From Shuttleworthella satelles DSM 14600 (GTDB lineage Bacteria > Bacillota > Clostridia > Lachnospirales > Lachnospiraceae): a stretch of DNA of 64,000 nucleotides. A model generated the notes under the pieces. That model worked only from the letters and a program-made list of their open reading frames with translations. It ran no database searches and was not told where the DNA came from. Within the stretch, counting starts at the first letter, position 1, and every line of letters begins with the position of its first letter. The stretch is from contig NZ_GG665867.1 in the NCBI RefSeq assembly GCF_000160115.1, positions 362,053 to 426,052 of the forward strand. Direction: 5' to 3'. This document shows positions 4,922 through 31,728 of this stretch, piece after piece. The translations under genes and the position numbers were made by a program.

Positions 4922-4924
4922 GTC

Positions 4925-5357: not shown

Positions 5358-5375
5358 ACGAAAAGAGAGCGTGTG

Positions 5376-6372: not shown

Positions 6373-6558
6373 CTGCGTCTTTGCGTCCGGCTCTTTAATG
6401 ATTGTGGTTTTAAACTCTTTTATACTAACTAAAGTTTCTAATTTACACTTAGGACAGTAAAGAGGAAAATTCCTTAATTCGGTATCTTTTCGTAGTTTTA
6501 TCCTCGTTTTACTTTTACATATAGGACATAACAACCATTCTGTTAGCAACATCGTCAT
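6364..6558 (-). CDS. Cysteine-rich KTR domain protein
   Basis: About 64 residues with two CxxC pairs (CPICKSKTRIKLRKDTEL and YCPKCKLETLVSI), a probable zinc ribbon with the KTR signature. A similar small protein lies downstream of tet(M) in Tn916. Its presence here suggests the cargo replaced tet(M) upstream of a conserved neighbour. ATG 6558 overlaps the hydrolase stop (TGATG), so it is translationally coupled. Its function is unknown. Confidence 0.75.
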   Translation of the reverse strand: MTMLLTEWLLCPICKSKTRIKLRKDTELRNFPLYCPKCKLETLVSIKEFKTTIIKEPDAKTQSR

Positions 6559-7592: not shown

Positions 7593-7626
7593 TCAACATT
7601 CCTCCTAACTATAATTCTTGAATGTT

Positions 7627-8265: not shown

Positions 8266-8278
8266 TAGACACCTCACT

Positions 8279-8342
8279 AAATTGACCAATCAGTCAGTAC
8301 TCTTGATTAGAGTATATCATATTTTGACTGATTGGTCAATTT
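8279..8342 (-). promoter_or_regulatory. TetR promoter with two operators
   Basis: An 18-base sequence at 8279-8296 is repeated as an exact inverse at 8325-8342. Each contains an inner dyad (TGAC-6-GTCA). On the minus strand TTGACC (8339-8334) and TATACT (8316-8311) form a sigma-A promoter with a 17-base spacer, and the -35 lies inside one operator. Binding at both copies would occlude the promoter. Confidence 0.88.
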
Positions 8343-8384
8343 CGGATGGTAAAGAGTGAAATGGTAATATTTTCTTTGATTAGA

Positions 8385-9296
8385 TTACTTCACAATCTTC
8401 CAATTCCCATCATTCTTTTCAAGTGTCAGACTGAACTGTGATACCTGCGTTGCTTTGGTCTGTGGGTCAAGATATTTAACCGATAAAGACACTGTAACCT
8501 GATTTTCTTTACGATTATAAATCGGATTGACCAGCTCCTGAAAAACATACTCTTTTCCAACCGGTTTTAGGATTCCATCTGTCACATAGTAGGACAGTTC
8601 CTTTTGCGTGGCAGTCGGGTAGAGCTTGAAGAAGGTGGTTAAAAAGTCATTGATTTCATTTGCAGTAACAGAATCCACCGTGCCGTCATTTTCTATTATC
8701 TTAGGCTGATAGGAAGACTTTGACGGTATGCTTGTAATGGTCGGATTCTTAATGATGACCATGTTTCCGGCACTGTCCACATAGACACTGACAGAATAAG
8801 CAGACTGCACGTTTTTCTTGCTTTCTCCCTCTGTAATAAGCTGTTCTACACTGTAGGTCATATCAAAGGTGTGATTCCCAGTATTTTTGACGCTCCATAT
8901 CTGAAAGTTTTGAAGCGAGGAGGACACCGGTATATCCTTTCGTACCGTGTCGTTATTAAGAGCTTGAAGCTCCTCTGTCAGATAGTTTTTCAGTGCTTTG
9001 GTTCGGTTGTCAATCGAGGTGCTGTTTTGCTCCCATGTGTAATAGACTTTCGCAAATTTCTCTACAAAATTTTCTATATTATGCGTATCCATATATTCTT
9101 TTTCGATGACCTTCGTTTCATGAATGGTATGGGTATCTATTGCCGTAAAATGCTTAAATACCGCAAAGCTGAAGCTGACTGCTAAGAGTATCCACAGGGC
9201 AATCACTATCTTTCTTCGAGGATTTATCTTATGAATACGGGGTTTCTTCTCTTTTGGAAGCTGTTTTTTATTGTTGTTATGATTGATGAATTTCAT
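8385..9296 (-). CDS. orf13: Conjugation protein Orf13 (TcpC/VirB8-like)
   Basis: A 303-residue protein with a basic N-terminus, one membrane segment at about residues 31-50 (IVIALWILLAVSFSFAVF) and two extracytoplasmic NTF2-like repeats. This is the TcpC/VirB8 layout of Gram-positive conjugation channels. It ends the transfer operon and is 15 bases from orf14. Confidence 0.9.
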   Translation of the reverse strand: MKFINHNNNKKQLPKEKKPRIHKINPRRKIVIALWILLAVSFSFAVFKHFTAIDTHTIHETKVIEKEYMDTHNIENFVEKFAKVYYTWEQNSTSIDNRTKALKNYLTEELQALNNDTVRKDIPVSSSLQNFQIWSVKNTGNHTFDMTYSVEQLITEGESKKNVQSAYSVSVYVDSAGNMVIIKNPTITSIPSKSSYQPKIIENDGTVDSVTANEINDFLTTFFKLYPTATQKELSYYVTDGILKPVGKEYVFQELVNPIYNRKENQVTVSLSVKYLDPQTKATQVSQFSLTLEKNDGNWKIVK

Positions 9297-9310
9297 ATTT
9301 TATTCCTTTC

Positions 9311-10312
9311 TTATCGTTTGATTCGTCCTGCTCCTGCCAAATGCTGCTGCCAGTAGGAGCTTGTCAAGTCGGTATAACCGATCGGGTCGCCTGCATGGTA
9401 CATACGGTTATTGCCGACATAGATTCCGACATGGGTAATGTATGTTCCGGAATTGTAAGTAGAATGGAAGAATATCAAATCTCCAGCCTTGGCTTCGGAT
9501 AGAGAGATGTGTTGGGTAGCGTCATACTGTGCCTGTGCGGTTCTTGGCAAAGAGATACCGGCTTTCCCATAGCACCACTGCACCAGTCCCGAACAGTCAA
9601 AAGAGGTAGTGGGAGAAGAACCGCCAAATACATATTTCCAGCCCTCATATTTAAGCGCTTCATTCATAATTGCCTGTGCGGTTTCATCATCAAACTGCGA
9701 TGTCACAAGATACTGTTTAACCAGAGCTACATAAAACATATTTCCATAGCTGTATCGCCAGCCCCCGTTCATAGAGATGGCAATAGAGTTGGGGTAGTCC
9801 ACCTTTACACCGCCGGAATGCTCCTTTGCAAAGCTCTGCGCCAGTTCAAAGCTGTATTTTTTGCCATGACGGGCGACATAATCTAAAAATCCACCGCCAT
9901 AGTTATAGGACTGTATGACACAATCGAAATCTACTTCCAGACGCTTACTGCCTGCCAGAAGCTCACTGAAATACTTTACGCCCTGTTTGATAGAGCTTTC
10001 CGTATCCAATGAGTTCGGAGGAAGCCCCAGCGATTCCGAAGACTGCATGACATCTTTTGCCGTACCGCCGGATTCCACCTGCATGATGGCAAGCAATACA
10101 TTTACATATTCACTCACACCATATTCCTTGGCGTATTTTTCTACCATAGGCTTGTGTGCCAGAACCTCCATGGAAACGGTCGCACCGCCAAATTGACTGT
10201 TCCCAAATCCGCCATCCTGTTCATCAGAAGATAAAATTGTGATAAACAAAAGTAGCGAGAATACAACTACGAAAAAACAGGAAAAGCCGATGAGAAGATG
10301 TTTTAATTTCAT
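9311..10312 (-). CDS. orf14: Orf14 cell wall hydrolase (lysozyme-like plus NlpC/P60)
   Basis: A 333-residue VirB1-type peptidoglycan hydrolase. An N-terminal membrane anchor covers about residues 7-27. A lysozyme-like domain follows (LLAIMQVESGGTAKDVMQSSES). The C-terminal NlpC/P60 peptidase has its Cys in TSFDCSGLVQWCYG and His in THVGIYVGNN. It opens the wall for the mating channel. Its ATG overlaps the orf15 stop. Confidence 0.93.
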   Translation of the reverse strand: MKLKHLLIGFSCFFVVVFSLLLFITILSSDEQDGGFGNSQFGGATVSMEVLAHKPMVEKYAKEYGVSEYVNVLLAIMQVESGGTAKDVMQSSESLGLPPNSLDTESSIKQGVKYFSELLAGSKRLEVDFDCVIQSYNYGGGFLDYVARHGKKYSFELAQSFAKEHSGGVKVDYPNSIAISMNGGWRYSYGNMFYVALVKQYLVTSQFDDETAQAIMNEALKYEGWKYVFGGSSPTTSFDCSGLVQWCYGKAGISLPRTAQAQYDATQHISLSEAKAGDLIFFHSTYNSGTYITHVGIYVGNNRMYHAGDPIGYTDLTSSYWQQHLAGAGRIKR

Positions 10313-12384
10313 GACGGCTTACCTTGGTCTTTTTTTATTCTGGCGGTTTGTAACGGTCTGCTTTTTGTGTTTACAGTCTGTGTTCTTGAAATAACAGGAG
10401 CTTGTCTTTTCGCTTTAAGCGGTGTTGAATTTTCTTTTAATCGGCTTGCTCTCTGGACAGACCATTCCTGTATATTTGCTGATTGAAATTCTCTTATCGT
10501 TTTTTGTGGTTCTTGTTTCTGAGCCGTTCGTTCCTGCCTAATTATCGGTCTTTCATGGACAGATGAAGCTACGCTGTTCTCTGATTTTGCCATTTCCATC
10601 CTCAAACGGCGTTCCGCAATCGTCTGTCGTCTTGCTTCCTGCTCCTGATTGCGTCTGTCTGCTCTGTATGTTCTTGCCTGAGTGATACCGCCGGTAAAAT
10701 CATTCATATTTTCTCTGATTTTGTTTTTACCTTGAAAGACGGCATATCTTGCGTTTGTCGGCAGGTCAGTGACCTGTTCCCTGAATTGATTGACAGATGC
10801 TGCTATCGTGTCTTTTGTATCGGCTATCGTTCCGACACCTTGTCCGAGCTTTGCTCCCAGTGAAGCCGAATGCTCACTTTGTGGTCGGCTATGGTCGGCT
10901 TGTGTTTTCGGAGAATGTGTTAAGCCATCTCTTTTCTGATTTCTTTTTCCGGCAATCGCAGAACCTACTCCATAAGCAGTCATGGAACGACCTAATGTTC
11001 TTTGTAGGCGGTGCATTTGTGCGTGCATAAGCATACGGGGTCTTCTCATCATACGGCTTCCGACACCTTGTGAATCATTGCTTTGCAGAGAAAACAGGCT
11101 CATCAAGTCACCAAGCTTAAAATAAATGCCTGCAAAGGTCACGATCTGCAAGAAAGCAACCATAAAGAACGGATAACCGGCAGACAGACTGTAAAGCATG
11201 GTGGAAATGCTAAAGGCAACAGTAATAATCAATGTAATGCCTGCACGGGTCAGGATGGTATTAAAGAGCTTTGTAATGGCTCTTTTGCTCATGCCCTCAA
11301 AGGTCGGCAGCATGCTGAGCAGGAAGCTGACCGGCAGGAACATGGCATAGATGATAAAGAGTATCTGTGAGAAAATCATAATGCCGGTCAGAAGAAAGAC
11401 AAAGATGGAAATACCAATATTAAAGAAGAACAGGAAAAATACCGTTCCTAACCTGCTGATTGTCTTTGTGATGGTCATATTGGCATTATCTTTATCCTCA
11501 ATTTCCTCTTTGATGATGTTTTCCCTGTCTTCACCGTTATTGGAATCGGGACTTGTGGACAAAAGATTTTCCACACGGTCGGTGCCAAGACTGTCTATGT
11601 CGGTTGTTCCGTACTGGAGCAGCAGCCAGGGCTGTTTCACCTGTATGGAAAACAGGCTGTCCCGGATTAAATCCACACTGTCTTTTCCTTTGGCTTCGGA
11701 ATCCGGCAAGGTGATTTTTGTGCCAAGCGATAAGCTGGCATTGCTGATGTCCGACGAAAAATCATTGATTTTCGCAATGTAATCCGGCGCATAGGCAATG
11801 AAGGAAGCGGACAGGATAAATACCAGTACGAAATTGACAATCGCATGAACCGCCTTTGTCGTTTCTCTTTTGATAAGTCCTGTATAGCTGACATAGATAC
11901 CGAGTACCAGAATAAAAATCAAAAGAAAACCGACATAAAAGCCCTCTGATGACAGACCGTCTGAAGTAACACCGGCTAAGGTCTGCATGTTTTTTCCGAT
12001 GGCATTCGCCGTGGAAGAAATGAAATCCAAGGAATACGCTTCTTTTACCAAGTAACCTGTGGCGTTTGAGATATACAGACTGATTGTCCAGATGAAATTG
12101 GTAATCGCATAAAGTCCATACATGACCTGCTTTCCAATGCCATCTGTCCAGTTCCACGGCAGCCAGTCCCAAGAATTATCGACATAAAAATCAAGCTGGT
12201 AGTTTGACAGCGGATATTTGCTGTATTCATTGGCAGTATTGACCGTATCGTCAACCAGTCCTGCGGCGTGTACTACGGTTCCGACCACAGACAGAAATAC
12301 TAAGGTGGCAATAAGAATCGCACCTGCTATCAGTATGACTTTCCCAATTCGCTTGACTACTTTTGCTATATTTTGCTGTTTCAT
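10309..12384 (-). CDS. orf15: Conjugation membrane protein Orf15 (VirB6-like)
   Basis: A 691-residue polytopic protein. Hydrophobic segments lie near residues 15-40, 85-110, 150-170, 180-205, 315-360 and 375-425. A long basic, glutamine-rich cytoplasmic tail follows from about residue 455. It is the channel core of the Tn916 type IV secretion system. It is separated from orf16 by two bases. Confidence 0.9.
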   Translation of the reverse strand: MKQQNIAKVVKRIGKVILIAGAILIATLVFLSVVGTVVHAAGLVDDTVNTANEYSKYPLSNYQLDFYVDNSWDWLPWNWTDGIGKQVMYGLYAITNFIWTISLYISNATGYLVKEAYSLDFISSTANAIGKNMQTLAGVTSDGLSSEGFYVGFLLIFILVLGIYVSYTGLIKRETTKAVHAIVNFVLVFILSASFIAYAPDYIAKINDFSSDISNASLSLGTKITLPDSEAKGKDSVDLIRDSLFSIQVKQPWLLLQYGTTDIDSLGTDRVENLLSTSPDSNNGEDRENIIKEEIEDKDNANMTITKTISRLGTVFFLFFFNIGISIFVFLLTGIMIFSQILFIIYAMFLPVSFLLSMLPTFEGMSKRAITKLFNTILTRAGITLIITVAFSISTMLYSLSAGYPFFMVAFLQIVTFAGIYFKLGDLMSLFSLQSNDSQGVGSRMMRRPRMLMHAQMHRLQRTLGRSMTAYGVGSAIAGKRNQKRDGLTHSPKTQADHSRPQSEHSASLGAKLGQGVGTIADTKDTIAASVNQFREQVTDLPTNARYAVFQGKNKIRENMNDFTGGITQARTYRADRRNQEQEARRQTIAERRLRMEMAKSENSVASSVHERPIIRQERTAQKQEPQKTIREFQSANIQEWSVQRASRLKENSTPLKAKRQAPVISRTQTVNTKSRPLQTARIKKDQGKPS

Positions 12385-12386
12385 GC

Positions 12387-14843
12387 TTACACCTCAATTC
12401 TTACCGGCGGTCTGGTATCAAAGGCATGGAGCAGTTCCTCAAACACAGGGTGAAACTGTATCACGCCGACACGCCCATATAAATCACTGATTAGACACTG
12501 CCCGTTTTCCAAGTTACGCAGACGCTTTTGGTTGTACTCATCTTCGGGGTCAACCCCAAAGAACGCCAAAGTCTTTTTTATCTCATTGATGTCCGTGGAG
12601 CGGAAAGCAAATTTCAGCCCCAGATTATTTTTGAGCTTTTCATCTAAGAGGTCGTCCGTATTTTGTGTCACGAAATAGACACCGGCATTCATGGCACGAC
12701 CGGCACGCACTAATTTCATGGATAGGGTCTTGCCCTGCGCCACCTGTAAAAAGCTCCATGCTTCGTCCAAGTCCACAATCTTGAAAATGCTTCTGTCCGT
12801 ATGGATAAAATCCAATGCAAAGGTGCTGATAACAATGAGCATTGCCACAGACAGCAGTTCCATAGTAGTATATTCTTCAAAATCGGTTTCCTTGTCCGGA
12901 AGCACCAAATCGGCAACCTGTATGATGTTTAGCTGTTTTTCCAAGCTGATGGACTGTTTTACCTCACCGTCACTAAAGAGAAGATGAGCAAAATCATAGT
13001 CGGTAAAACTTTCAATATGCTCTGCAATGCTTGTGGCGGTATCCGTTCCCTCAATTCTCAATTCTTCAATAACCTTTAATAAGCCCCTTACTTCACTGTT
13101 TGTTACGGCACGAATGGCTTTTCTAAGGACGGGGAAACGGTCGGAATCACGGGAAGAAATCCCTGTCAAAAAGGTCAATATATCAATCGCAAGAGATTCT
13201 GAATCCTTTGGATTTTTCATAATTACATAAGGGTCAAGTAATCCCATGTTTTTCTTTTCAGAGGTCAGATTGACAATATTTATTTCATGAGCGATTTCAG
13301 GCAGGGTTTCTTTCCAACTTCCACGTTCCGCTTTCGGGTCAACAATAAGAGCCTGTGCCCCGAAAAGCACCGCATAATAGACAATCAGATTATTGGCAAA
13401 GGATTTTCCACCGCCAAGAGAGCCGACAAAAGCGGAAGCCAAGGCATTCGTCACAGAGCCTTTTACTCCCTGTGAAGCAAGAGCCGGTTTCAGATAAACA
13501 TTTCTTCCCGTATCCAGATTGTAACCGACATAGATTCCGTCTTTTTCCCCAAGCATTTGTGTTGCCCCAAAGCCAAGTCCGGCAAGAAAATCCGAAGTCA
13601 CATACTGGATATAGTCATTCATATAGCGTTTGCTGGCTGGCAGAAATTCTCCCTGCAAGCCCAACATGTCGCCAAACGGTCGCACCAGCTTTACGCTTAA
13701 ATCATCGTAAAAATCCTTCACCTCATCACAACGTCGTTTCAGCTCATCCATATCATTAGCGGATACACGCACTACATAGGAGAGCTTATACATGGATTCC
13801 TTGCTCTGGTCTAAACTGCTTTCCAGCTCACTGACACTTTCTAAAGCGTCGGCGACATTGGTGCTGGTTTCATTGTCATTCTGCCAAGCGTGGTTATCCA
13901 AATCTTTCAGTTCCTTTTTCTTATTTCTGACTGTCCCCAAAGCCTTTTTATTGGCTACAATTTCTACATTCATGGATGTATCAATCGGAAACGTGAATTG
14001 CTGTTGCTGATAGTAGAAAATTTCACTTGATGGGAAATCCAGTTCTCCGACAACGCTGTTAATCGTAAAGTAAGCAACGTACACGGTTCTATCTTCCTGT
14101 TCCAGTTTCAAATATCGCTGCTTTTCTTCAATCAGGCAACGGGTCGGCTTAATCAGGTCATAGTATTTTACCAGTGTTTCTCCATCCGTCTTTTTCTTTG
14201 AAAGATGGTAGGTATAATCTTCATAGGCTGTGCCGGTCTGTCCATAGATGTGTTCAATGAGATAACCGAAATCATCTTTATTTAATGGTCGGATTTTAAA
14301 TCTTCTTGAAATCTTGTTCGAGAGCAGCTTTTCCATCTTTGAATAGCGTAAAATCTCATCATTGCTCATGCTGACAAAATCGCCCATCAGCTTATGGTTG
14401 ACATCATAGATAAAATCCAAAGCCGCATTTTTGGCTTCTTTTGTAAATTCCCTGACGGATACATCCTGTTCGCCAAAAAGGAGCTTAAAGCCGATATAAA
14501 AGCGGTAATCGACCTGATTTTCTCCAATCATGGAAATCAAAGCCTCTGTCTGCTCATCAATTCTTTTTTCGGCAACTTCTTTTAATTTCCCGACGATTCC
14601 CTTTTTGGAATTTTCCTGAATGGAACGTATGCTGGATTCCGTACTGATTTGCAGAGCATGAATTTTCCCGTTACGGTTTTGTGCGATAAGCTGTCTGAAA
14701 GAATCATGCACCTGTAATTTTTGCTCAGGGCTTAGAAAAGAATAGTTATAGGGAAGAAGTTCATAGTAGGCAAAGCATTCCCCGTCATTGTTCCAGACCA
14801 GATTGTTTTCAATATATTTAATGGGATATTTCATCGTATTCAC
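12387..14843 (-). CDS. orf16: Conjugation ATPase Orf16 (VirB4-like)
   Basis: An 818-residue ATPase that powers the mating channel. Walker A is SLGGGKSFANN (near residue 475) and Walker B is FKIVDLDEAW (near residue 690), followed by VTQNTDDLL. Its 5' end overlaps the orf17 stop at 14,818-14,843. A second start, ATG 14,834, is three codons in. Confidence 0.93.
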   Translation of the reverse strand: MNTMKYPIKYIENNLVWNNDGECFAYYELLPYNYSFLSPEQKLQVHDSFRQLIAQNRNGKIHALQISTESSIRSIQENSKKGIVGKLKEVAEKRIDEQTEALISMIGENQVDYRFYIGFKLLFGEQDVSVREFTKEAKNAALDFIYDVNHKLMGDFVSMSNDEILRYSKMEKLLSNKISRRFKIRPLNKDDFGYLIEHIYGQTGTAYEDYTYHLSKKKTDGETLVKYYDLIKPTRCLIEEKQRYLKLEQEDRTVYVAYFTINSVVGELDFPSSEIFYYQQQQFTFPIDTSMNVEIVANKKALGTVRNKKKELKDLDNHAWQNDNETSTNVADALESVSELESSLDQSKESMYKLSYVVRVSANDMDELKRRCDEVKDFYDDLSVKLVRPFGDMLGLQGEFLPASKRYMNDYIQYVTSDFLAGLGFGATQMLGEKDGIYVGYNLDTGRNVYLKPALASQGVKGSVTNALASAFVGSLGGGKSFANNLIVYYAVLFGAQALIVDPKAERGSWKETLPEIAHEINIVNLTSEKKNMGLLDPYVIMKNPKDSESLAIDILTFLTGISSRDSDRFPVLRKAIRAVTNSEVRGLLKVIEELRIEGTDTATSIAEHIESFTDYDFAHLLFSDGEVKQSISLEKQLNIIQVADLVLPDKETDFEEYTTMELLSVAMLIVISTFALDFIHTDRSIFKIVDLDEAWSFLQVAQGKTLSMKLVRAGRAMNAGVYFVTQNTDDLLDEKLKNNLGLKFAFRSTDINEIKKTLAFFGVDPEDEYNQKRLRNLENGQCLISDLYGRVGVIQFHPVFEELLHAFDTRPPVRIEV

Positions 14844-15210
14844 TCCTGACTGCTGTAATTGCTTCCTGCATATTGTTTTTTCTTAAATGTATGGTTTTGC
14901 CTGCATAAGTCAGCTTCGGTCTGAACCAAAAGGAAATTACCGACTTCAAAAATCCGTAAGGCTTTTTTCCGTCGAATGTTTTCTGGCTCATAAACCAAGT
15001 CAGGACGACCGGGATTCCAAAATATTTCAGGAATGCCCCATCAATAAAAGACAGTGGCGGAAGATTCCCAAGAAGTATGACTGCAAATACAGACACCACA
15101 AACCATGTCATTTGCGTAAAGGTGATAGGGAAAGGCAGCTTAAAGTCATTGATAGAGTAAAGCACCTTTTCCACCGACCAGATATTGGTATAGCTTCGTA
15201 TTTTTTTCAT
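14818..15210 (-). CDS. orf17: Conjugation protein Orf17 (TcpE-like)
   Basis: A 130-residue protein with two membrane segments (TWFVVSVFAVILLGNLPPL and an adjacent hydrophobic stretch) and a basic tail. It matches the TcpE/PrgI-like component that sits before VirB4 in Tn916-type systems. A hairpin terminator-like element precedes it. Confidence 0.85.
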   Translation of the reverse strand: MKKIRSYTNIWSVEKVLYSINDFKLPFPITFTQMTWFVVSVFAVILLGNLPPLSFIDGAFLKYFGIPVVLTWFMSQKTFDGKKPYGFLKSVISFWFRPKLTYAGKTIHLRKNNMQEAITAVRSEYDEISH

Positions 15211-15235
15211 TTTTATTTCTTTATCCTTTCATAAA

Positions 15236-15262
15236 AAGGGATAGTTTTTGGACTATCCCCTT
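15236..15262 (-). terminator. Hairpin between orf18 and orf17
   Basis: GGGATAGT (15238-15245) pairs with ACTATCCC (15252-15259). On the minus strand it is followed by TTTTTAT. It could partly separate ardA/orf19-orf23 from the mating-channel genes. Confidence 0.6.
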
Positions 15263-15294
15263 AAGTCAAACCAATCTGTCTGTGTCATCAGACA

Positions 15295-15792
15295 TCAGTA
15301 GATAATTTCAAAAATCCCACGGCTTGCATGGATAAAAGTTCCTGAAAGCTCTAAGTCACGCCCAAAGGATTCATAATCAATATAGTTTTGCAGACTTGCC
15401 GGAACTTCACCAAGCATACCCGTTTCCTCAATGTAGTAGCGTGCCACATCTGCCATATCATCACAGCCGGAATGCAGAATAATATCGTCCTGATGTTCGC
15501 TTAATTCTTCAATGCTGGGAAAGTGCGTAAGCAAGGCGGAAAGCTCTGACTGTAATTCTTCGGGCAGATCACATACCAGCTCATAAAGATGGTTCAGTTC
15601 TGCAAGGGAGGTGTATTCGTCAATGTCAAAGGGCAGCTCGTAATCATGAATGGCGTATTCCTCATACTCATCATTCAAGCCGATTTTTTCTTTGACTTCT
15701 TCAAAATCTACGGGGAGCTTAAACCAAGCTCCCACGAGTTCCCCCTCGTTATATTTGCCGAGGTTGGCAATATATACCTGCATATCGTCCAT
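15295..15792 (-). CDS. ardA: ArdA antirestriction protein (Orf18)
   Basis: A 165-residue, strongly acidic protein, the DNA-mimic ArdA of Tn916. It blocks type I restriction enzymes as the element enters a new host. Signature stretches include IANLGKYNEGELVGAW and EYAIHDYELPFDIDEYTSL. Confidence 0.93.
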   Translation of the reverse strand: MDDMQVYIANLGKYNEGELVGAWFKLPVDFEEVKEKIGLNDEYEEYAIHDYELPFDIDEYTSLAELNHLYELVCDLPEELQSELSALLTHFPSIEELSEHQDDIILHSGCDDMADVARYYIEETGMLGEVPASLQNYIDYESFGRDLELSGTFIHASRGIFEIIY

Positions 15793-15807
15793 TCATTTTC
15801 CTCCTCT

Positions 15808-16029
15808 CTAAGCTCCAATAATTTTATTGAACAGCTCCAGTAAAATGTCCTTGACACCGGCTGCGTTGAATACCAGTCCTACTGCAATAATCGCAATGAT
15901 AAGAAAGCCGATAAGTTTGGAAAATTCACGCTTAAAGCCAAGATATAAGCCAATCACAACAATAGCTAAAAGCACCAGTGATTGTGCGTTCGATAAAAAC
16001 CAGTTATAAAGATTTTGTCCAAAGTTCAT
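15808..16029 (-). CDS. orf19: Small membrane protein Orf19
   Basis: A 73-residue protein with two or three hydrophobic helices (SLVLLAIVVIGLYLGF and LIGFLIIAIIAVGLVFNAAG). It matches Tn916 Orf19, a probable small channel component, 15 bases upstream of ardA. Confidence 0.8.
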   Translation of the reverse strand: MNFGQNLYNWFLSNAQSLVLLAIVVIGLYLGFKREFSKLIGFLIIAIIAVGLVFNAAGVKDILLELFNKIIGA

Positions 16030-16067
16030 TGAAAAATATTCTCCTCTCTGTTAAAAATGAATTTGTG

Positions 16068-17255
16068 TCATACAATGACATTTTTGATATTTGCTGACTG
16101 TTGTTTGAGAATCTGCTTATGCTTGTCCGTCAGCTTTGCATGTGCAAGCAGAGTATTTACCGTCTGTGTCTGATTGATTTCGTCCAGCTTTAGTGCCACC
16201 TTTAAGGTAGGAGCGACCTGACGAGCCAGCCAGTTTAGCGTTCGCTCATAGGTATAGGGTTCCGGTTTTGTCGTGAGTTTTAAGCGGTCACGGTGATTGC
16301 CGATAAACCAAGCCCATTCATCATTCAATTTCCAGTCACAGCGAGGTCTGTTATCATCCCTGTCTACAAAACGGATATAGCGGTTGATAATCTTAAAGGC
16401 GGTCTGCTCCGGATTGTCAAAGATAAGCAGGTCACGAACGGCATAATAGGCACGCTCATTTTTCAGACGGATTTCAAAGCGGTTTTTCACTTCCGCTTCA
16501 CGGATGGGAATATGATTCTTCCTGTACTGCTCATAGTCCTTTTCATAAATGCAAAAGTAAACTTCGCTTTGAAGAGAACCAATATAGAGAGTATTTCCCA
16601 TACATTCCTTTTCATCTTTGCGTACCAGTTCACCGCTTCGGTAGCTTTTGAAACTGCGAAAGACGGAGATACATTCCTCATTCCTGCATTTTTCGGTAAG
16701 CATGGGAATATTCAAAATGCCGGTTCTGTCATTGATGGCTAAATCCAGTCGCTTCATCACACCGCCAGCCGATAAGGCGTCCATGAAAAATTCATACCAG
16801 CTTCGCTCCTGTGCCAGAAGATAGGCTTCAAACTGTCTGCACCCACGTCCCTTTAGTTCTACCAGCACACCCTTACTAAGCTCCGATGAACAGAGAACAA
16901 ATATATCTCCTAAAGCGTAATGCTCCGAATAGGAGTAGAAGCCGTAATCCTCATGAAGAAAATAGGACAGCTTTAATCGCAGGATTTGTTCTACCACATA
17001 TCTGACATCTGTTGTCGGAAAGCGAATCCTTACATAGTCAAAAATAAGCTCAAGCGGAGAGTTAGGATTGAACCGTTCCAAGGTTTCAAAGAGTACATGT
17101 TCCAGTTCCTTTGACGGTATGACTTTCCCTGTTTCAATATCACTTAAATACTGCCTTGTAATACCTGCTCCGGTTGCCAGACGGCTCTGTGAAATACCAT
17201 AAGCCAATCGTGTTTCTTTTATCTTTTCGATATGATTTTCTTTCTCCAGTAAAAT
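16068..17255 (-). CDS. orf20: MobT relaxase (Orf20)
   Basis: A rolling-circle-type relaxase that nicks Tn916 oriT. An N-terminal XRE-like HTH (GISQSRLATGAGITRQYLSDIETG) precedes the Rep_trans catalytic domain. The first in-frame TTG is at 17,207, but family-like sequence (EKENHIEKIKETRLAYG) extends upstream. The frame stays open back to AGGAGGG at about 17,257-17,263, where only ATT (17,255) or CTG (17,249) could start it. I place the start there with doubt. The oriT region lies just upstream. Confidence 0.85.
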   Translation of the reverse strand: MLLEKENHIEKIKETRLAYGISQSRLATGAGITRQYLSDIETGKVIPSKELEHVLFETLERFNPNSPLELIFDYVRIRFPTTDVRYVVEQILRLKLSYFLHEDYGFYSYSEHYALGDIFVLCSSELSKGVLVELKGRGCRQFEAYLLAQERSWYEFFMDALSAGGVMKRLDLAINDRTGILNIPMLTEKCRNEECISVFRSFKSYRSGELVRKDEKECMGNTLYIGSLQSEVYFCIYEKDYEQYRKNHIPIREAEVKNRFEIRLKNERAYYAVRDLLIFDNPEQTAFKIINRYIRFVDRDDNRPRCDWKLNDEWAWFIGNHRDRLKLTTKPEPYTYERTLNWLARQVAPTLKVALKLDEINQTQTVNTLLAHAKLTDKHKQILKQQSANIKNVIV

Positions 17256-17459
17256 CCCTCCTGTCTAAAAAGGCAGATGTCAACTTTGAAAGCTCACTTG
17301 ACACCTGCCGTAATTTCTATAATCCCTTGTCCTGTAAAGAATAAGAGATGATAAATAAATTGTTTTTTGTCGATTTGTACCCCCCTGTTAGATACGGGGG
17401 GTTGAATGGTTGGCGTGGCTGCCGCCACACCAACCGGCAAACCGTCCGCACGGCAAGGC
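17256..17459 (-). other. Tn916-type oriT region
   Basis: The gap between orf21 and orf20, where Tn916 oriT is known to lie. It holds three strong inverted repeats: 17,272-17,283 with 17,298-17,309 (11 of 12 pairs, followed on the minus strand by TTTTT, so also an attenuator for orf20), ACCCCCC/GGGGGGT (17,379-17,402), and 17,408-17,419 with 17,424-17,435. The nick site cannot be fixed by eye. Confidence 0.7.
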
Positions 17460-18836
17460 TTACGCTTCGCACGCCTTTTGTGCGTCCTGCCTGCCGTCTG
17501 TGAGTTTCCGTATCTCCTCTAAAAAATCATGTCCTTTGGGAACAAGGGGCGTATAAAATTCAGATATGACGCTTGTTCCCACATCAACATAGCCACGCCC
17601 TTTGATTTGTTTTGAGAAGAAATCCTTTTGCACATCACTTCCAAACATCATGCCGTATCCCATTTCAGACATACGACCTAAAGCTACTCTGAAATGAAAC
17701 TGGTCACGGATTCCGTCGCCAAGGTATTTTGCGTCCGGTCTTTGACAGGCTAATATTAGGAAAAATCCTGCCTGACGACCTAACATGACAATCTGCTTTA
17801 ATTTATTTAAGACGGCAGTATTCTCCTTTGTTCCCAGCATTTCCATAAAAGCGACATATTCATCAAAAATCAGGAAATGAGCCGGAAGCCCCAAGTAGGA
17901 ATAATTTTCGCCTGTTTTATAGTTTTCCATTTCTTTCATGGCGAGGCTTCGCTTCACCATTTCTTCATAGAATCTGTCAATGCAGGAAAGGATATCTTCC
18001 TTTTGAAAATACACCTCTTTCATAACAGAGCCTAAGTCGGCAAGATCGGCATTTTTCGGGTCAAGGATATACAGCTTTGCATTTGTACGGAGCAGGGCTT
18101 CAATCAGTGTCAGGATAAAATAGGTTTTACCGCCGCCTGTACCACCGGCAATTAACATATGAGGGAGCTTGTCATATTCCCACCATATATTTTTCATAAG
18201 GCGTAGCTTTCCGCTTTTTGCCTGTACCTCGTCAATGGAAATACGATTGGCAATCATGTCATAAAGCAGGGTATATTCCACATAGGAATCTTTCAGCTCC
18301 TTTTCGGTCAGCTCACAATATAAGCCGCTCTCCAGCTTTTTCTCCAAATGCAGGAGCTGTTCCTGATACTTGCCCAGCGTAATTTCTACACGTATCTGAA
18401 TCAGACCGTTTTTCATGCGGTAATAGACTTTCGGGAAGTAGCTTATCTTTTCTCTTGTCCGGCTGGAAGAATCTTTAAAAATCCCCTCTGATTTTACCTG
18501 CTTTGCTTCATACCATTTGTTTTCCAGTATCATTCTGGCTAATTTCTGACGATGATAGAGCTGTTTTATCCAGTCATAGCGATAGCGTTTAATCACCAAA
18601 ACAAGCAGCAGGCAGATAACACCGGAGCTAATACAGCTTATGGAAAGATAGGGAACATTGATTTCACCTGCTTTTGGTAAATGAAAATCCTGCCAGTTTA
18701 TCTCTGAGATTGTCTTTGCATGAAACAGGGCAACAACAAGAATAAAAACCGGCAGGAATATTGATACGGCTGTATGAAAGACCAAATCCTTATCGCTTGG
18801 TCGAATCCGTTTACCGGAAAGAAGCCACTGTTTCAT
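17460..18836 (-). CDS. orf21: FtsK/TcpA coupling protein (Orf21)
   Basis: A 458-residue DNA translocase/coupling protein that brings the relaxed strand to the channel. Two N-terminal membrane segments precede an FtsK/SpoIIIE ATPase: Walker A IAGGTGGGKTYFILTL (near residue 235) and Walker B HFLIFDEYVAFME. Confidence 0.93.
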   Translation of the reverse strand: MKQWLLSGKRIRPSDKDLVFHTAVSIFLPVFILVVALFHAKTISEINWQDFHLPKAGEINVPYLSISCISSGVICLLLVLVIKRYRYDWIKQLYHRQKLARMILENKWYEAKQVKSEGIFKDSSSRTREKISYFPKVYYRMKNGLIQIRVEITLGKYQEQLLHLEKKLESGLYCELTEKELKDSYVEYTLLYDMIANRISIDEVQAKSGKLRLMKNIWWEYDKLPHMLIAGGTGGGKTYFILTLIEALLRTNAKLYILDPKNADLADLGSVMKEVYFQKEDILSCIDRFYEEMVKRSLAMKEMENYKTGENYSYLGLPAHFLIFDEYVAFMEMLGTKENTAVLNKLKQIVMLGRQAGFFLILACQRPDAKYLGDGIRDQFHFRVALGRMSEMGYGMMFGSDVQKDFFSKQIKGRGYVDVGTSVISEFYTPLVPKGHDFLEEIRKLTDGRQDAQKACEA

Positions 18837-18871
18837 GTGCCTGTTTCTCCTTTCGATTTGCGTTCTTTACC

Positions 18872-19252
18872 TTACTTTTCAGATATGGGTTCTTTTTTAG
18901 GAGCTTCCCTCTTGAAATTTCCTGAATCCTTCGCCGGCACAATATCATCTGCCTTGATATACCAGTCCACCTCTGCTCCCTGAAAGGTTGCGGTCGCTAC
19001 CGTATCGGCTACCGGATTGATAAGCTCTACATGTGCGTTATAGTCAAATTCTTTCAGCGGAACGCTTGCAGGAATGCTCACCTGAATCATTCGTCCCTGT
19101 CCTTTGGATTTGAGGTCATAGGTACGCTCCTTAATTTCTTCCGAAAGCGTGCCATCTTCCTTTTGAATGCGTACCTCACGGCGAAGTGCGGAGAATTTCA
19201 ACTCTCCAAATGTCGCTTCCTTTTCTAAGACGATACCGTTTGCTAATCTCAT
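18872..19252 (-). CDS. orf22: Tn916 Orf22-like protein (YdcP family)
   Basis: A 126-residue protein of the YdcP-like family found at the head of Tn916 and ICEBs1 transfer operons. It is distantly similar to orf23, with a shared core (FGELKFS against FGNLEFAG). In related ICEs these proteins are reported to support element replication. Confidence 0.8.
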   Translation of the reverse strand: MRLANGIVLEKEATFGELKFSALRREVRIQKEDGTLSEEIKERTYDLKSKGQGRMIQVSIPASVPLKEFDYNAHVELINPVADTVATATFQGAEVDWYIKADDIVPAKDSGNFKREAPKKEPISEK

Positions 19253-19268
19253 TTCTTTTCCTCGCTTT

Positions 19269-19583
19269 CTATGCCTTTATCATGTCGTCGGCTTCCAGAA
19301 TGTAATTGGTAAATCCTCGTGTGCCGATTTTATATCCCTCTGCTCTGATACGGGGATGGATGAGTTTTACTTTTTCCTCAAAGGCAAAGTTCTTTTCGCC
19401 TGCTTCTGCCGGAAGTATCACGATAATATCGTCTGCTCTCTGCACATCGGAATAGAGGTTGTAGCTTCTTGATAAGACCGTAAGCTGTCCGTTGATTCTT
19501 CTTTGTATGACTTTATCCTCACCGGCAAATTCTAAGTTTCCAAAAGTCTTTTCCATGTTGGGAATAACAAATTTTAGTTCCAT
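19269..19583 (-). CDS. orf23: Tn916 Orf23-like protein (YdcP family)
   Basis: A 104-residue protein starting MELKFVIPNMEKTFG at 19,583, where AGGACG gives a ribosome site. A longer frame to 19,754 has no such signal. First gene of the transfer operon; orf24 is not seen. Confidence 0.8.
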   Translation of the reverse strand: MELKFVIPNMEKTFGNLEFAGEDKVIQRRINGQLTVLSRSYNLYSDVQRADDIIVILPAEAGEKNFAFEEKVKLIHPRIRAEGYKIGTRGFTNYILEADDMIKA

Positions 19584-19896
19584 ATTTTTTCGTCCTTTCT
19601 GTGATTTATTGATTTTTATGTTTTCAGCGTATCTTTCGTAGGAGAACGACATTTCCTTTCCAAAGTTTTTCTTTCCATCATTATCACGACCTTTCAAATT
19701 AAATACAAAAATAGACACCTCATTGTTGAAGTGTCTACCTTTATGAATATTCAATTTGTGCTGGAGGTATCTATTAAATCTTCACCTTTCAAGGAAAATC
19801 GTCGTACCAAAGCTCATTCATACGTAGTAAATCAGTAGTAATTTAATTGGTTTTATCCTTGATAAGGTGCAGTGTCTCCAGTGTTTATGCAGATAA
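19584..19896. other. Leader and end region of the Tn916-like element
   Basis: About 310 bases without a gene. It contains a hairpin (TAGACAC/GTGTCTA, about 19,711-19,737), the Int arm-site-like repeats GTAGTAAAT (19,824-19,832) and GTAGTAATT (19,835-19,843), and the terminal inverted repeat at 19,892-19,900. The promoter for the transfer operon should lie here, but no strong -35/-10 pair was found. Confidence 0.55.
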
Positions 19897-19900
19897 TTGG
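19892..19900. repeat. Terminal inverted repeat core, transfer-gene end
   Basis: GATAATTGG is the inverse of CCAATTATC at 3264-3272 and marks the other end of the Tn916-like element. The element boundary lies 6-20 bases further right. Confidence 0.7.
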
Positions 19901-21172: not shown

Positions 21173-21664
21173 ATGGCAAGAAGAGTATTTTTTAGCTTTC
21201 ATTATGATGAGGATATTAATAGATCAATGACAGTGAGAAATAGTTGGGTTACTCAAGGCAAAGAAGCTGCAGGTTTTATTGATAAGGCGGAATTTGAAAA
21301 GGTTAAAAGGAATGGTGAAAATGCTGTTTACAAATGGATAGATAAGCAACTAGAAGGAACTTCAGTTACTGTAGTCCTAATTGGCAAAGAAACATTAAAA
21401 CGTCCATTTGTCCAATATGAAATACGAAAAAGCATTGAAAGAGGAAATGCAATAATTGGGATTTATATACATAACATTAGAGATATGAGAACTCAAAGAA
21501 CATCAGTAAAGGGCAATTCACATACTGTTATTGGATACTATAATGATGATACACCTGCGTATTTTGACTCTATTTGTGATGGTTTGTATGACTATTCGCA
21601 AGACAATGGATATTATAATTTGGGAAGCTGGATCGAAAAAGCAGCACGAAAAAAAGGAAAATAA
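21173..21664 (+). CDS. thsB: ThsB-type TIR protein 1 (Thoeris)
   Basis: A 163-residue TIR-like protein closely resembling Bacillus cereus ThsB (RRVFFSFHYDEDINRS, VRNSWVTQ, SVTVVLIGKETLKRPFVQYEI, GNAIIGIYIHNI). Such proteins sense phage and make a cyclic ADP-ribose-type signal that activates ThsA. The likely catalytic Glu is in FVQYEIRKSIERG. AAGGAGG overlaps the end of thsA, and the start is one base past the thsA stop, so the operon is tight. Confidence 0.9.
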   Translation: MARRVFFSFHYDEDINRSMTVRNSWVTQGKEAAGFIDKAEFEKVKRNGENAVYKWIDKQLEGTSVTVVLIGKETLKRPFVQYEIRKSIERGNAIIGIYIHNIRDMRTQRTSVKGNSHTVIGYYNDDTPAYFDSICDGLYDYSQDNGYYNLGSWIEKAARKKGK

Positions 21665-21701
21665 CTGTAGTAAGTTGATAAAAATAGCGAGGTGATGGGT
21701 T

Positions 21702-22271
21702 ATGAAAGAGATTTTTGAGCAAGGAGAATTTAGTGAATATAGGATTAATAACTTACAAAAATCTAGGGGTGTTATTAACGAGTCTTTTGCTTTTTTTGAG
21801 GAAAAAGTTCCTGTCTTTATATCACATAAACATGATGATTTAGATGATTTAAAGGGTATTATAGGATTTCTTGAAAAAAATTTTAATGTTATTGCATATA
21901 TTGATAGTAGAGATTTATCTATGCCTAAAATAACATCTGGAGAGACTGCTGAAAAAATTAAAGATAGAATAAAAAAATGCAAAAGGTTTATTTTATTAGC
22001 CACTGATGGAGCAGTCGAATCAAAATGGTGTAATTGGGAGTTGGGATTTGCTGATGCGATTAAAGGAAAAAAAGCTGTACTTTTTCCTATGAAAGAGAAG
22101 GGGAGTAACTATAAAGGAAATGAGTATATGGAAATATATTCATATATAACATATTTCGATGGGCGAGAGGAATATGATTCAGGGAAAAAAGTGGAGGCAG
22201 GATATTATGTTATGACAAAATCTAAAGATAAAAAATCTATAATTCCACTTTCAAGTTGGCTAAAAGAGTAA
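21702..22271 (+). CDS. ThsB-like TIR protein 2
   Basis: A 189-residue protein whose TIR domain begins at about residue 33 (VPVFISHKHDDLDDLKGIIGF). It has the strand-D region RFILLATDGAVESKWCNWELGFADA, where Glu in WCNWELG is the probable catalytic residue. It belongs to a different TIR branch from the first ThsB. Thoeris loci with several TIR proteins are known; each may recognise a different phage trigger. It is 37 bases after thsB and joined directly to the next gene. Confidence 0.87.
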   Translation: MKEIFEQGEFSEYRINNLQKSRGVINESFAFFEEKVPVFISHKHDDLDDLKGIIGFLEKNFNVIAYIDSRDLSMPKITSGETAEKIKDRIKKCKRFILLATDGAVESKWCNWELGFADAIKGKKAVLFPMKEKGSNYKGNEYMEIYSYITYFDGREEYDSGKKVEAGYYVMTKSKDKKSIIPLSSWLKE

Positions 22272-23408
22272 TTGGTTATGGGAAAAACAGCAAGGCAATT
22301 TAATAAAATTTATATTGATTATAAAAAGAAATTTAAAAAGCCAATTCAACAAGTTTTGATGTTAATGCCATATACTTTTTCAGACGATGATATTGTTAAT
22401 ACATTTAAAGAGTTATATCCACATATGTGGGATGATTTGAATAAACAGTATAATTTTTGGCATAACAAAAATATGGTTCTGATTAAGTATGGGAAAAAGA
22501 GCAGATATAATTTTAGAAAACCATATAATTTTATTTTAGATTGTGCTTTTCATAGTGTGAATAAACTTAGAAAAGATAAGAACAGAATTATTTTGGGAAA
22601 AGATGAGGTGGGAAATTTAAAGAATGAAATAAAGCAGCTATCAAAATCCAAATTTGATAAAAGAAAACAAAAAGTCGACGGCACATTAAGATTTATTCAA
22701 GAAATAGAACCATCATATACATCATTTTTTATAGATAGATATTTTAATACTTACGACTTGCATCAAAAATTAGAGATAATGAGAGAGCTTTCAAAATATA
22801 AATCATCAAATATTACGGAGTTTTTTTACAAGGTTAATTCATGTACGAGAAATTTTTCTTTAAAAATAGAAGCCCAAAACTATATTCAATCTATTGGATT
22901 ACCATTTATGTTAAGACGTAAGAAAAAAGGTAAGAAAAATTATATTGATAACGAAATTGTAAAAAACAATTCAGGTCCTGAAGTTTTAAAACAGAGACTG
23001 TACGTAGATGATTTAGAAAAGGTGAAAAGATTTGATGTTTTTATATCTCATAACTCTAGTGATATGAATCAAATAGTTGAATTATATAAAAACCTAAATA
23101 CAAAAGGATATGTGGCTTATATAGATTGGGTTAATGATAAATATGATTTGAAACGAGAATGGTGTAATGCTTCAACATCAGAAATTATTAAGCTAAGAAT
23201 ACAGCAAAGTAAGATTTTTATAATCTTTTTAACAGAATCAACATTTAAATCGCAGTGGTGTCCATGGGAACTTGGATATGCAGATGCTTTGAATAAAAAA
23301 ATTTATGTTTATATTTCACCTAATTTTAAAAATGTAGATATTCCTATTTTCTATAGAAGTTACACTGAAATAAAAAGTGTTGATGAAATTATAATAGAAA
23401 ATAATTAA
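22272..23408 (+). CDS. ThsB-like TIR protein 3 with long N-terminal domain
   Basis: A 378-residue protein. Residues about 250-375 are a TIR domain (KRFDVFISHNSSDMNQIVELY; FLTESTFKSQWCPWELGYADAL with the probable catalytic Glu). Residues 1-245 are basic and helical and match no family I recognise. Start: GTG or ATG near 22,272-22,278 right after the previous stop, with no clear independent ribosome site, so it is coupled to TIR protein 2. The N-terminal part could be the phage-sensing module. Confidence 0.82.
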   Translation: MVMGKTARQFNKIYIDYKKKFKKPIQQVLMLMPYTFSDDDIVNTFKELYPHMWDDLNKQYNFWHNKNMVLIKYGKKSRYNFRKPYNFILDCAFHSVNKLRKDKNRIILGKDEVGNLKNEIKQLSKSKFDKRKQKVDGTLRFIQEIEPSYTSFFIDRYFNTYDLHQKLEIMRELSKYKSSNITEFFYKVNSCTRNFSLKIEAQNYIQSIGLPFMLRRKKKGKKNYIDNEIVKNNSGPEVLKQRLYVDDLEKVKRFDVFISHNSSDMNQIVELYKNLNTKGYVAYIDWVNDKYDLKREWCNASTSEIIKLRIQQSKIFIIFLTESTFKSQWCPWELGYADALNKKIYVYISPNFKNVDIPIFYRSYTEIKSVDEIIIENN

Positions 23409-28481: not shown

Positions 28482-28759
28482 GTATTCAATTACATGAATT
28501 AGCTAAGATAGGAGATATGTTTATGAGGGGAAAATGGATTGAATAACGGGGGTAATTGCTATGTGTTATTTAGGGTCTGTTATTCATATAGAAAAAAACA
28601 ATAGACCTTTTTGGCACTGGTAATTATCATGAAAAATTAAATTTAAAATATAGAGAAAGAACAAGTTTCTTTCATTTTCGAGGACTTCTTATGCCTATGT
28701 GCAGGAGTCCTCCTTTTTTGTCTTAAAACGCAGACAAAAAAGAAATGGAGGAAACATAT
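28482..28759 (+). promoter_or_regulatory. Gap with two terminators before the sigma-like gene
   Basis: No gene seen. Two terminators: GGTCTGTT...AACAATAGACC then TTTTT (28,573-28,612), and GAGGACT...AGTCCTC then TTTTTT (28,680-28,719). The second sits 41 bases before the next start and may act as an attenuator, as upstream of orf7 in the inner ICE. Confidence 0.65.
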
Positions 28760-29170
28760 ATGTCAAAAGAATATTACCTTTATGTCAACGGGCAAAAGGT
28801 CAGAGTCAGCAAGCAGATATACAAAGTCTACTGGCGGGAAAGAGAACACGAGAAGTATTTAGAGCAGGTGGACAAGAAAAACCACTTGCTCTTTTTTTCA
28901 TCATTGGACCATGACGGACACTTTGTAGATAATATTGTTGATGAAAGTGTTGATGTAGAAAAGATTGTTGAAACACAGATGATGATTGAAGCAGTCAAAA
29001 ATGCTATATCAAGACTTAATGCAGAAGAAAAGGATATTATTGAACGTTTGTATTTTAATGATGAAACTGTTCGTTCAGTGGCAAAGCTCAAAAGTATTAC
29101 ACATCCGGCTTTAATCAAAAGAAGAAACAAAATTCTTGAAAAGCTGAAAAAAATTATCGAAGAACTTTAA
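28760..29170 (+). CDS. Sigma-70-like regulator of the outer ICE
   Basis: 136 residues from ATG 28,760 (GGAGG at 28,747-28,751). The C-terminal half is a region-4-type HTH (AISRLNAEEKDIIERLYFNDETVRSVAKL). It is analogous in position to orf7/orf8 of the Tn916-like element: sigma-like gene, structured RNA, then recombination genes. A role in switching on excision is inferred. Confidence 0.75.
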   Translation: MSKEYYLYVNGQKVRVSKQIYKVYWREREHEKYLEQVDKKNHLLFFSSLDHDGHFVDNIVDESVDVEKIVETQMMIEAVKNAISRLNAEEKDIIERLYFNDETVRSVAKLKSITHPALIKRRNKILEKLKKIIEEL

Positions 29171-29236: not shown

Positions 29237-29312
29237 TTTCTTGGGTAAGAGATATGCTTGTTTATGGCAAATAGGAAAATGTAAAGAAAACAATCCCTTT
29301 CAAATATTGCTC

Positions 29313-29589
29313 TTTGACAACTGAATAGACCAAGGTAGGACTTTATCCATTTACTGAGAGTTATGACCTACGCCAAGACTTTTCTGCTGATGAAAATCGG
29401 TTTAAATGAGTACCGGCATATTGTCGAGGTTAGAAGAAAACGAGCGATAGATAGGAATACATAAAAGATAAGCGTGGCAGCTTATTTCGATGATGTAAGT
29501 GGTGATAATGATACTTCAATAGTTTAAGCTGCCTCGTCTGGAACAAGGGGCAGAGGTGAGATTCCTATGTAGCAGCCAATGCACCTACC
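29313..29589 (+). ncRNA. Structured RNA upstream of the recombinase, same family as the xis leader
   Basis: A gene-free stretch with nested pairing: GGTAGG (29,334-29,339) with CCTACC (29,584-29,589), ATAGGAAT (29,451-29,458) with ATTCCTAT (29,561-29,568), and GGCAGCTTA (29,476-29,484) with TAAGCTGCC (29,525-29,533). It shares TTTGACAACTGAATA (29,313), GAAAACGAGC (29,436), ATAATGATACT (29,505) and GGTGAGATTCC (29,555) with the minus-strand leader at 4,925-5,255, in the same order. Both lie between a sigma-like gene and recombination genes. Function unknown. Confidence 0.6.
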
Positions 29590-29658
29590 AATGTCATAAA
29601 ACTTAGTAAGAAAAATAATATGTGATTATAGACGATTTAAAGCGGAGGAGGTGTCTTA

Positions 29659-29820
29659 GTGGATAATGACTGGAATGGATTGGCTGATTTGATAGCAAAT
29701 CTGATTACAAAATATGCTGGAGTTTTAGATTTAGATAATCTTCCAAATCCAACTCCAGTAAAAAGTACAGAAGGTAAAAATAAATTTGACATGGTAAAAA
29801 CACAGATTGAGGGAAAGTAA
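29659..29820 (+). CDS. 53-residue ORF before the recombinase
   Basis: GTG 29,659 has a strong GGAGGAGG seven bases upstream. The product (starts MDNDWNGLADLIANLI, ends DMVKTQIEGK) is unrecognised. It holds the position that xis holds in the inner ICE, so a recombination directionality factor is one possibility; its small size and lack of an HTH argue against certainty. Confidence 0.6.
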   Translation: MDNDWNGLADLIANLITKYAGVLDLDNLPNPTPVKSTEGKNKFDMVKTQIEGK

Positions 29821-29910: not shown

Positions 29911-31728
29911 ATGTCAAAAGAAAAAATAAAAGTATACCTCTATACAAGAGTATCTACATCAATACAGATAGACGGTTATTCTTTAGAGGCACAAAAATCA
30001 AGAATGAAAGCTTTTGCTCTCTATAATGATTATGAGATTGTTGGTGAATACGAAGATGCGGGCAAGTCTGGAAAATCTATTGAGGGAAGAATACAGTTTA
30101 CTCGCATGATGGAAGATATAAAATCCGGAAAGGATGGAGTATCTTTTGTTCTTGTGTTTAAGCTGTCAAGATTTGCAAGAAATGCTGCTGATGTTTTATC
30201 AACTCTACAAACAATGCAAGATTTTGGAGTCAATTTGATTTGTGTTGAGGATGGGATTGATTCATCCAAAGATGCAGGTAAATTGATGATTTCAGTTTTA
30301 TCAGCTGTGGCTGAAATTGAAAGAGAAAATATTCGTGTTCAAACAATGGAAGGTCGCATTCAAAAGGCAAGAGAGGGAAAATGGAACGGAGGGTTTGCCC
30401 CGTATGGGTATCAGCTTGTCGATGGAAAACTGTTTATCAATGAAGAAGAAGCTGTAGCTATAAGAACTATTTTCGATCAATATGTTAACACAACCATTGG
30501 AGCGAATGGACTTTCTAAATACCTAGAAAATCATGGAATAAGAAAAATTCCAAGACAGAATGGGAAAAATCCATTATTTGATGCGGGTCTTATAAGAAAG
30601 ATATTAAAGAATCCTGTATATAACGGGAAGATAGCCTTTGGAAGAAGAACTTTAGAAAAAGTTCATGGTACAAGAAATGAATATAAGCAAGTTGAACAAG
30701 ATGAATATTTAATAGCTGAAGGTATTCATGAAGCTATAATTTCTGATGAGCTGTGGCAGGCTGCTCAGGTTAAATTAAAATCACAAGCAAAGAAATATGA
30801 GCATGTGAATAAGGGAAAAGATGTTAGAACCCATTTGTTATCAGGAATTGTAAAATGCCCGATATGTGGAGTGGGAATGTTTGGAAACAAATGTATCAAG
30901 AAAAAGAAAGATGGTACAAAGTATAAAGATTTTTATTACTATGGCTGTAAACATAGGCATATGATAAGAGGTCATAAATGTACTTACAATAAACAAATCA
31001 GAGAAGAATTGTTAGATGATGCAGTTGCTGAGGTAATTATAAAGATAGTAAGCAATCCCAAATTTGCTTCTATGATGCAAGAAAAAATTAACATGAAGGT
31101 AGATACCTCTGAAATAGAAAAAGAGATAGATAATTACCAGAAAGAATTGAGGAAGAGCCATTCTACGAAATTTAAGCTAATTGAGGAAATAGATAATTTA
31201 GATGCTGATGATAAGCACTACAAACGAAGAAAACAGGACTTAGACGATAGACTTTATCGTATGTATGATAAGATTGAAGACTTAGAATCATTGTTAATTG
31301 ATGCGAAAGCAAAGAAACAAACTATTGAAGCTGAGAAACTTACAGGAGATAACATATATAAGATTTTGATCTATTTTGATAAAATTTACAAGGTAATGAA
31401 TGATGTAGAGCGTAGACAGTTAATTACAGCTTTGATTTCTGAAATTCAAATTTACGAAGAAAAGCAACCGAATGGGCAATGGCTAAAATCAATTACTTTT
31501 AAACTTCCTATCATCGATGAAGATTTAAATATAGGTTTGGACAATGATAAGCAAGTTGAGACGGTGTGCTTATTATCCAAACTCTCCGAAGCTAAGAATC
31601 ATATCCGCCTGAAGGTCGATATGGATGAGATGGATGTGACGGCGGCGGAGAATAAGGGGATCTATCGGGAGATCCAGGAGTGGGTGCAGGAAAAAGAAGG
31701 GGCAGGCAGCTACAGTGTCCGGAGGTAA
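29911..31728 (+). CDS. Large serine recombinase of the outer ICE
   Basis: A 605-residue recombinase. The resolvase domain has YTRVSTSIQIDGYSLEAQ (catalytic Ser near residue 12) and KLSRFARNAADVLS. The recombinase domain has GFAPYGYQLV. A zinc ribbon follows (KCPICGVGM...YYGCKHR...HKC) and then a coiled coil at about residues 390-470. The last roughly 55 residues, from VETVCLLSKL onward, are encoded by GC-rich host DNA and are the tail of the rumA-like target gene. The natural protein in the excised form therefore ends differently. Confidence 0.93.
   Translation: MSKEKIKVYLYTRVSTSIQIDGYSLEAQKSRMKAFALYNDYEIVGEYEDAGKSGKSIEGRIQFTRMMEDIKSGKDGVSFVLVFKLSRFARNAADVLSTLQTMQDFGVNLICVEDGIDSSKDAGKLMISVLSAVAEIERENIRVQTMEGRIQKAREGKWNGGFAPYGYQLVDGKLFINEEEAVAIRTIFDQYVNTTIGANGLSKYLENHGIRKIPRQNGKNPLFDAGLIRKILKNPVYNGKIAFGRRTLEKVHGTRNEYKQVEQDEYLIAEGIHEAIISDELWQAAQVKLKSQAKKYEHVNKGKDVRTHLLSGIVKCPICGVGMFGNKCIKKKKDGTKYKDFYYYGCKHRHMIRGHKCTYNKQIREELLDDAVAEVIIKIVSNPKFASMMQEKINMKVDTSEIEKEIDNYQKELRKSHSTKFKLIEEIDNLDADDKHYKRRKQDLDDRLYRMYDKIEDLESLLIDAKAKKQTIEAEKLTGDNIYKILIYFDKIYKVMNDVERRQLITALISEIQIYEEKQPNGQWLKSITFKLPIIDEDLNIGLDNDKQVETVCLLSKLSEAKNHIRLKVDMDEMDVTAAENKGIYREIQEWVQEKEGAGSYSVRR

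Follow-up and report, generated by a model that had tools for sequence, protein, structure and literature searches.

The stretch of Shuttleworthella satelles DSM 14600 DNA analysed here (64,000 nucleotides; hereafter the window) carries a canT-type RNA of about 290 nt in a mobile DNA element, at about 29308-29595 on the plus strand. This RNA, hereafter the outer RNA, very probably (at roughly 85%) serves an integrative element as a processive antiterminator of the canT type, acting in cis. The present analysis establishes its homology, its structure by covariation, its box and its gene order. Its most likely role is to load RNA polymerase to pass terminators after excision, and not to control excision.

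The RNA lies between a sigma-70 region-4-like gene (28745-29170, +) and a small ORF of 53 aa with a GTG start (29659-29820, +), followed by a large serine recombinase (29911-31728, +; Pfam Resolvase, Recombinase and Zn_ribbon_recom). An earlier sequence-only reading had placed a structured RNA in this ORF-free interval, and it is indeed there. The sigma-like gene scores 29.9 bits against TIGR02937, below the cut-off of 42.9, and its plasmid homologs are annotated as sigma-70 family. The small ORF has homologs in the corresponding position of related loci, with E values down to 1e-29. By eye, the recombinase ORF seems to extend beyond the element, its tail becoming rlmD-like near 31558.

A scan of the window against Rfam at gathering scores, a comparison that the earlier reading had proposed, returned only RF02913 (pemK RNA, type Cis-reg), and no match with another role. 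There were two matches, 29505-29570 in the outer RNA (47.7 bits) and 4982-5098 on the minus strand (67.3 bits), both above the gathering score of 34.8. No tested role for RF02913 was found. Its model of 61 positions covers the 3' core, which in the outer RNA begins with ATAATGATACT. The full RNA is far larger, with the box, the helices P1 and P2 and further helices lying outside the model. The second match belongs to an inner copy of the RNA (4956-5257, -; boxA-like element at 5238-5257) in a Tn916-like element, where it lies between orf7/orf8-type genes (5376-6025, -) and a xis-type gene (4718-4921, -; E value of 2.8e-38 to the Tn916-type xis) and tyrosine integrase (3418-4635, -). The parallel that had been drawn between the two elements, sigma-like gene, RNA, small ORF and recombinase in one and orf7/orf8, RNA, xis and int in the other, is thus borne out by membership of both RNAs in one family.

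A third RF02913 copy occurs in the same genome at C4:323736. The element that carries it is a neighbour of similar layout (G000:C4:316001-362100; L177-L179), with the order relaxase, MobC, cargo, sigma-like gene, RNA and serine recombinase (324072-325865). After it come insertion sequences, a type I restriction system and a VirB4-type gene that is truncated. Insertion sequences interrupt the outer element in its left half. This outer element is probably no longer intact, as a VirB4-type gene is cut short beside an insertion sequence and the left end could not be located: a PF05958 search for the left junction in rlmD turned up no fragment further upstream on the contig. The inner element (3279-19897) is apparently inserted in a Sir2-like gene, the halves of which are recognised by eye as an ORF at 3034-3279 and an ORF starting at 19897. 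The ORFs adjoining this gene at 21173-23408 resemble, again by eye, TIR-type defence proteins.

The reference for this family is canT, a 452-bp region of the conjugative transposon Tn916 between orf8 and xis, which is a cis-acting processive antiterminator that lets RNA polymerase pass terminators (Wirachman and Grossman 2024, PMC11658703). It works without any other Tn916 gene, acts on heterologous terminators, and is needed for conjugation gene expression after excision but not for excision itself (PMC11658703). We transferred the published offsets from the orf8 stop to the Tn916-type element of pCF10 (L032), in which RF02913 matches 3543-3643. The mutation canT(S3) alters 3 bp at 283 nt past the orf8 stop; it eliminates antitermination in Tn916 and has little effect in a 400-bp canT fragment (PMC11658703). 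On L032 it falls at 3543-3545, that is, at RF02913 model positions 1-3; the counterpart in the outer RNA is the ATA at 29505-29507. The deletion canT(Delta162), which spans 229-390 nt after the stop (PMC11658703), corresponds to 3489-3650 and removes the whole match. We therefore regard RF02913 as the core of canT. Both copies in the window contain this core, lie at the recombination end of their element downstream of one or more sigma-like genes, are co-directional with xis or the recombinase, and share the higher-order structure P1 and P2. The Tn916-type sequence likewise has a boxA-like tag, P1 and P2. The outer RNA is only distantly similar to canT in sequence, and its partners are a 53-aa ORF and a large serine recombinase, where canT has xis and a tyrosine integrase. 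Sequence comparison argues strongly that it is a divergent canT homologue in a serine-recombinase element.

The structural evidence is comparative, since single-sequence folding of the interval was no better than that of shuffles (z = -0.01). The RNA is closed by a long-range helix (P1) and has about eight helices in all. In diverse sequences its elements follow the order box, P1, an ACGTT/ACTTT motif, P2, P3, CGCCAWGAC, P4, GAGCGA, P5, ATAATGATACT, P6, P7, P8 and P1'. In the outer RNA (all on the plus strand), P1 pairs 29328-29339 (GAC..GGTAGG) with 29584-29595 (CCTACC..GTC), and P2 pairs CCATTTAC (29347-29354) with GTAAGTGG (29495-29502). Hairpins are formed at 29468-29485 (P5), 29529-29553 (P6), 29554-29566 (P7, AGG-TGAGATT-CCT, whose closing pairs are AU and UA) and 29572-29582 (P8). 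Two motifs are conserved, CGCCAAGAC at 29371-29379 (CGCCAWGAC in the family; found with at most 3 mismatches in 78 of 84 diverse sequences) and GAGCGA at 29442-29447 (74/84 with at most one mismatch; near-invariant in A1).

Covariation was measured in 19 sequences of the outer copy's type, namely the outer copy and 18 relatives, over seven helices: P1 in two parts (helices 1 and 2), P2 (helix 3) and P5 to P8 (helices 4 to 7), with P3 and P4 left out. Paired cells amounted to 92.7%, versus 80.6% in shuffles, a percentage biased towards the model, which was drawn up by eye on these very sequences. More weight falls on the compensatory changes. Both sides changed in 21 of the 36 pairs, including 7/8 pairs of P2 (98.7% paired) and 4 pairs of P5 (79% paired), and the covariation score was 0.471 against 0.222 in shuffles. 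On four of five measures none of 500 shuffles was as high as the real alignment, and on the fifth one of 500 was. Controls in which the partner strand was slid gave 50% paired cells or less. When partner strands were swapped among sequences (54-83 sequences), P1, P2, P3, P4 and P8 each scored higher with their own partner than with those taken from other sequences, and for P1 and P2 far higher (p about 1e-15). Folding the whole family with MAFFT and RNAalifold yielded few helices; the clade alignment and the partner-swap tests were informative instead. The structure P1, P2 and P5 to P8 is strongly supported by covariation. Three nested stems had been proposed for the interval, and only the 6-bp stem (29334-29339/29584-29589) survives, as part of P1, with 98.2% of cells paired and both-side changes in 4 of 6 pairs in the 19 sequences. 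The 8-bp stem, presumed to be 29451-29458/29561-29568, was 76% paired with no pair changed on both sides, the 9-bp stem, presumed to be 29476-29484/29525-29533, was 49% paired, and other helices are conserved in their stead.

At the 5' end of the RNA lies a 20-nt boxA-like element, TGCTCTTTGACAACTGAATA (29308-29327, +), which resembles the box in the rRNA leaders of the same genome. The family form upstream of the core is TGWWCYTTGAMAAYTGAATA. With at most 2 mismatches, a 15-nt form of the box was found at 112 of 157 loci, whereas shuffles had it in 0.4% of cases and none of 106 windows far upstream had it; with at most one mismatch it occurs at only 3 sites in the 2.17-Mb genome, each upstream of an RF02913 copy. 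The rRNA leaders of the window's genome carry GTTCTTTGATAACTGAACA or GAACCTTGATAACTGAACA, and those of this and two further genomes match the family box at 15-17 of 20 positions, although there the box is not followed by a canT-type RNA; the leaders of the fourth genome examined, G057, had no clear box. Among 22 checked loci found by the Rfam search, 7 had no recognisable box, several of them with orf7/orf8-type neighbours. RF02913 loci in which the box has diverged or is absent include L007, L014, L015, L019, L022, L026, L027 and L029. A reading of the box as the -35 part of a promoter was rejected, as no promoter-like pair starting within 29308-29327 was listed. In rRNA antitermination boxA acts as a NusB/S10 site, and by analogy the box may recruit NusB/S10 here. 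By the coordinates given for it (PMC11658703), the working 452-bp canT fragment starts inside the box and lacks the first 6 of its 20 nt, so the full box may be dispensable. Among shorter published canT fragments, those of 341-400 bp are active and one of 291 bp is inactive.

A search with the core pattern yielded 15 loci on viral contigs and at least 117 on genome contigs; with other loci, 160 were surveyed. A sigma-like gene (a phmmer match to sigOuter or orf7) lies upstream at 75 of the 160 and a recombinase downstream at 78 (47 serine, 32 tyrosine; phmmer), counts that are lower bounds, since Pfam identifies recombinases at several loci that lack a phmmer match, and many loci are short. 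The first large downstream ORF is co-directional with the RNA at 121 of 126 loci. In a second layout, ParA and ParB genes lie downstream. One such element (G005), followed over 60 kb, has the RNA at the head of about 32 kb of mostly co-directional ORFs of the types ParA, ParB, surface protein, SNF2-type, relaxase, VirD4, VirB6, VirB4, sortase and CHAP, with a Tet-type gene and a tyrosine integrase beyond them; the ParA and ParB types were confirmed by Pfam on close homologs and the rest were named by eye. Terminator-like sites exist on the sense strand of this operon, and strand counts show no enrichment. In both layouts the RNA stands first in the transcription order of a long operon of the element, be it directly or by way of the junction in the circle. 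At L186-L188 (G005:C37) an RNA with a box heads an element with an opposite-strand Tet-type ribosomal protection gene and a PemK/MazF-like ORF. The canT-type RNA is also present on a Streptococcus agalactiae plasmid record with erm(B) and on Anaerococcus prevotii pAPRE01 (L034, L033). At L140 an RF02913-type core lies beside chromosomal-looking genes (a YtxK-like methylase and acetate kinase), with no recombinase found nearby.

Antitermination by the outer copy is likely from its sequence relationships. Transcription would enter from the sigma-like gene, the protein product of which may itself drive transcription. The nascent RNA would expose the boxA-like tag and fold into the P1-closed domain, and the RNA complex would render RNA polymerase resistant to terminators. 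The modified polymerase would transcribe the small ORF and the recombinase and, in the circular element, cross the junction into the left-end genes. We infer that the divergent outer copy is active, and that its element still uses the RNA despite a damaged-looking left half.

Other roles fit less well. The RNA stands in the presumed 5' UTR of the recombinase operon and its Rfam type is Cis-reg, as would be expected of a leader attenuator or riboswitch that regulates the adjacent small ORF and recombinase locally, but this is improbable: unrelated genes follow the RNA (serine recombinases, tyrosine integrases, ParA/ParB), no sense-strand terminator-like site is listed between RNA and recombinase, and canT acts on heterologous terminators in Tn916 (PMC11658703). 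Still less probable is the proposal of the sequence-only reading that the RNA or the sigma-like protein is a switch controlling excision. The RNA does precede xis/int or small ORF/recombinase in both elements, and the 75 loci with an upstream sigma-like gene, many on short contigs, would suit such a switch. Against it, excision is normal in canT mutants of Tn916, whose defect is in conjugation gene expression after excision, the 452-bp fragment antiterminates without other element genes, the sigma-like ones included (PMC11658703), and in G005 the RNA stands before a conjugation operon at a long distance from the integrase. What stands of that proposal is its other half, a principle shared by the two elements and antitermination through the RNA, as the RF02913 core common to both is that of canT. 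A trans-acting small RNA or boxA decoy titrating NusB/S10, which the autonomous-looking fold with its boxA-like tag might suggest, is very hard to credit, as gene order and orientation are strongly constrained and canT in trans neither complements nor interferes (PMC11658703).

Another Gram-positive system in which antitermination serves conjugation genes and involves RNA is conAn (ConAn1/conAn2) of plasmid pLS20, which in contrast to the canT-type RNA has a protein partner. We rejected conAn as a homolog, as pLS20 1-40000 contains neither an RF02913 match nor the box-plus-core arrangement. The EAR (eps operon) and put (HK022) RNAs are likewise RNA-based processive antiterminators; the scan of the window at gathering scores returned nothing but RF02913. 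Neither 'boxA' nor 'pemK' appears in the text of the canT paper (PMC11658703), and we found no paper joining RF02913, canT and boxA in the open-access literature, which is weak evidence of novelty.

The canT authors noted that interpreting folding predictions was complicated (PMC11658703); a covariation-supported structure, missing from that paper, is now supplied for the canT-type RNA. RF02913 gains a likely function, and the Tn916 antiterminator turns out to be one example of an RNA shared by many mobile elements of Bacillota. We offer tentatively, as something short of probable, a broader reading in which RF02913 with its previously unrecognised 5' parts, widespread in Bacillota, would serve integrative and conjugative elements in general as their antiterminator. 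It would act from the start of the conjugation operon or through the junction in the circle, and would capture the host rRNA antitermination machinery by means of a copied boxA. The boxA-like tag suggests how the canT-type RNA could work and makes the mechanism directly testable.
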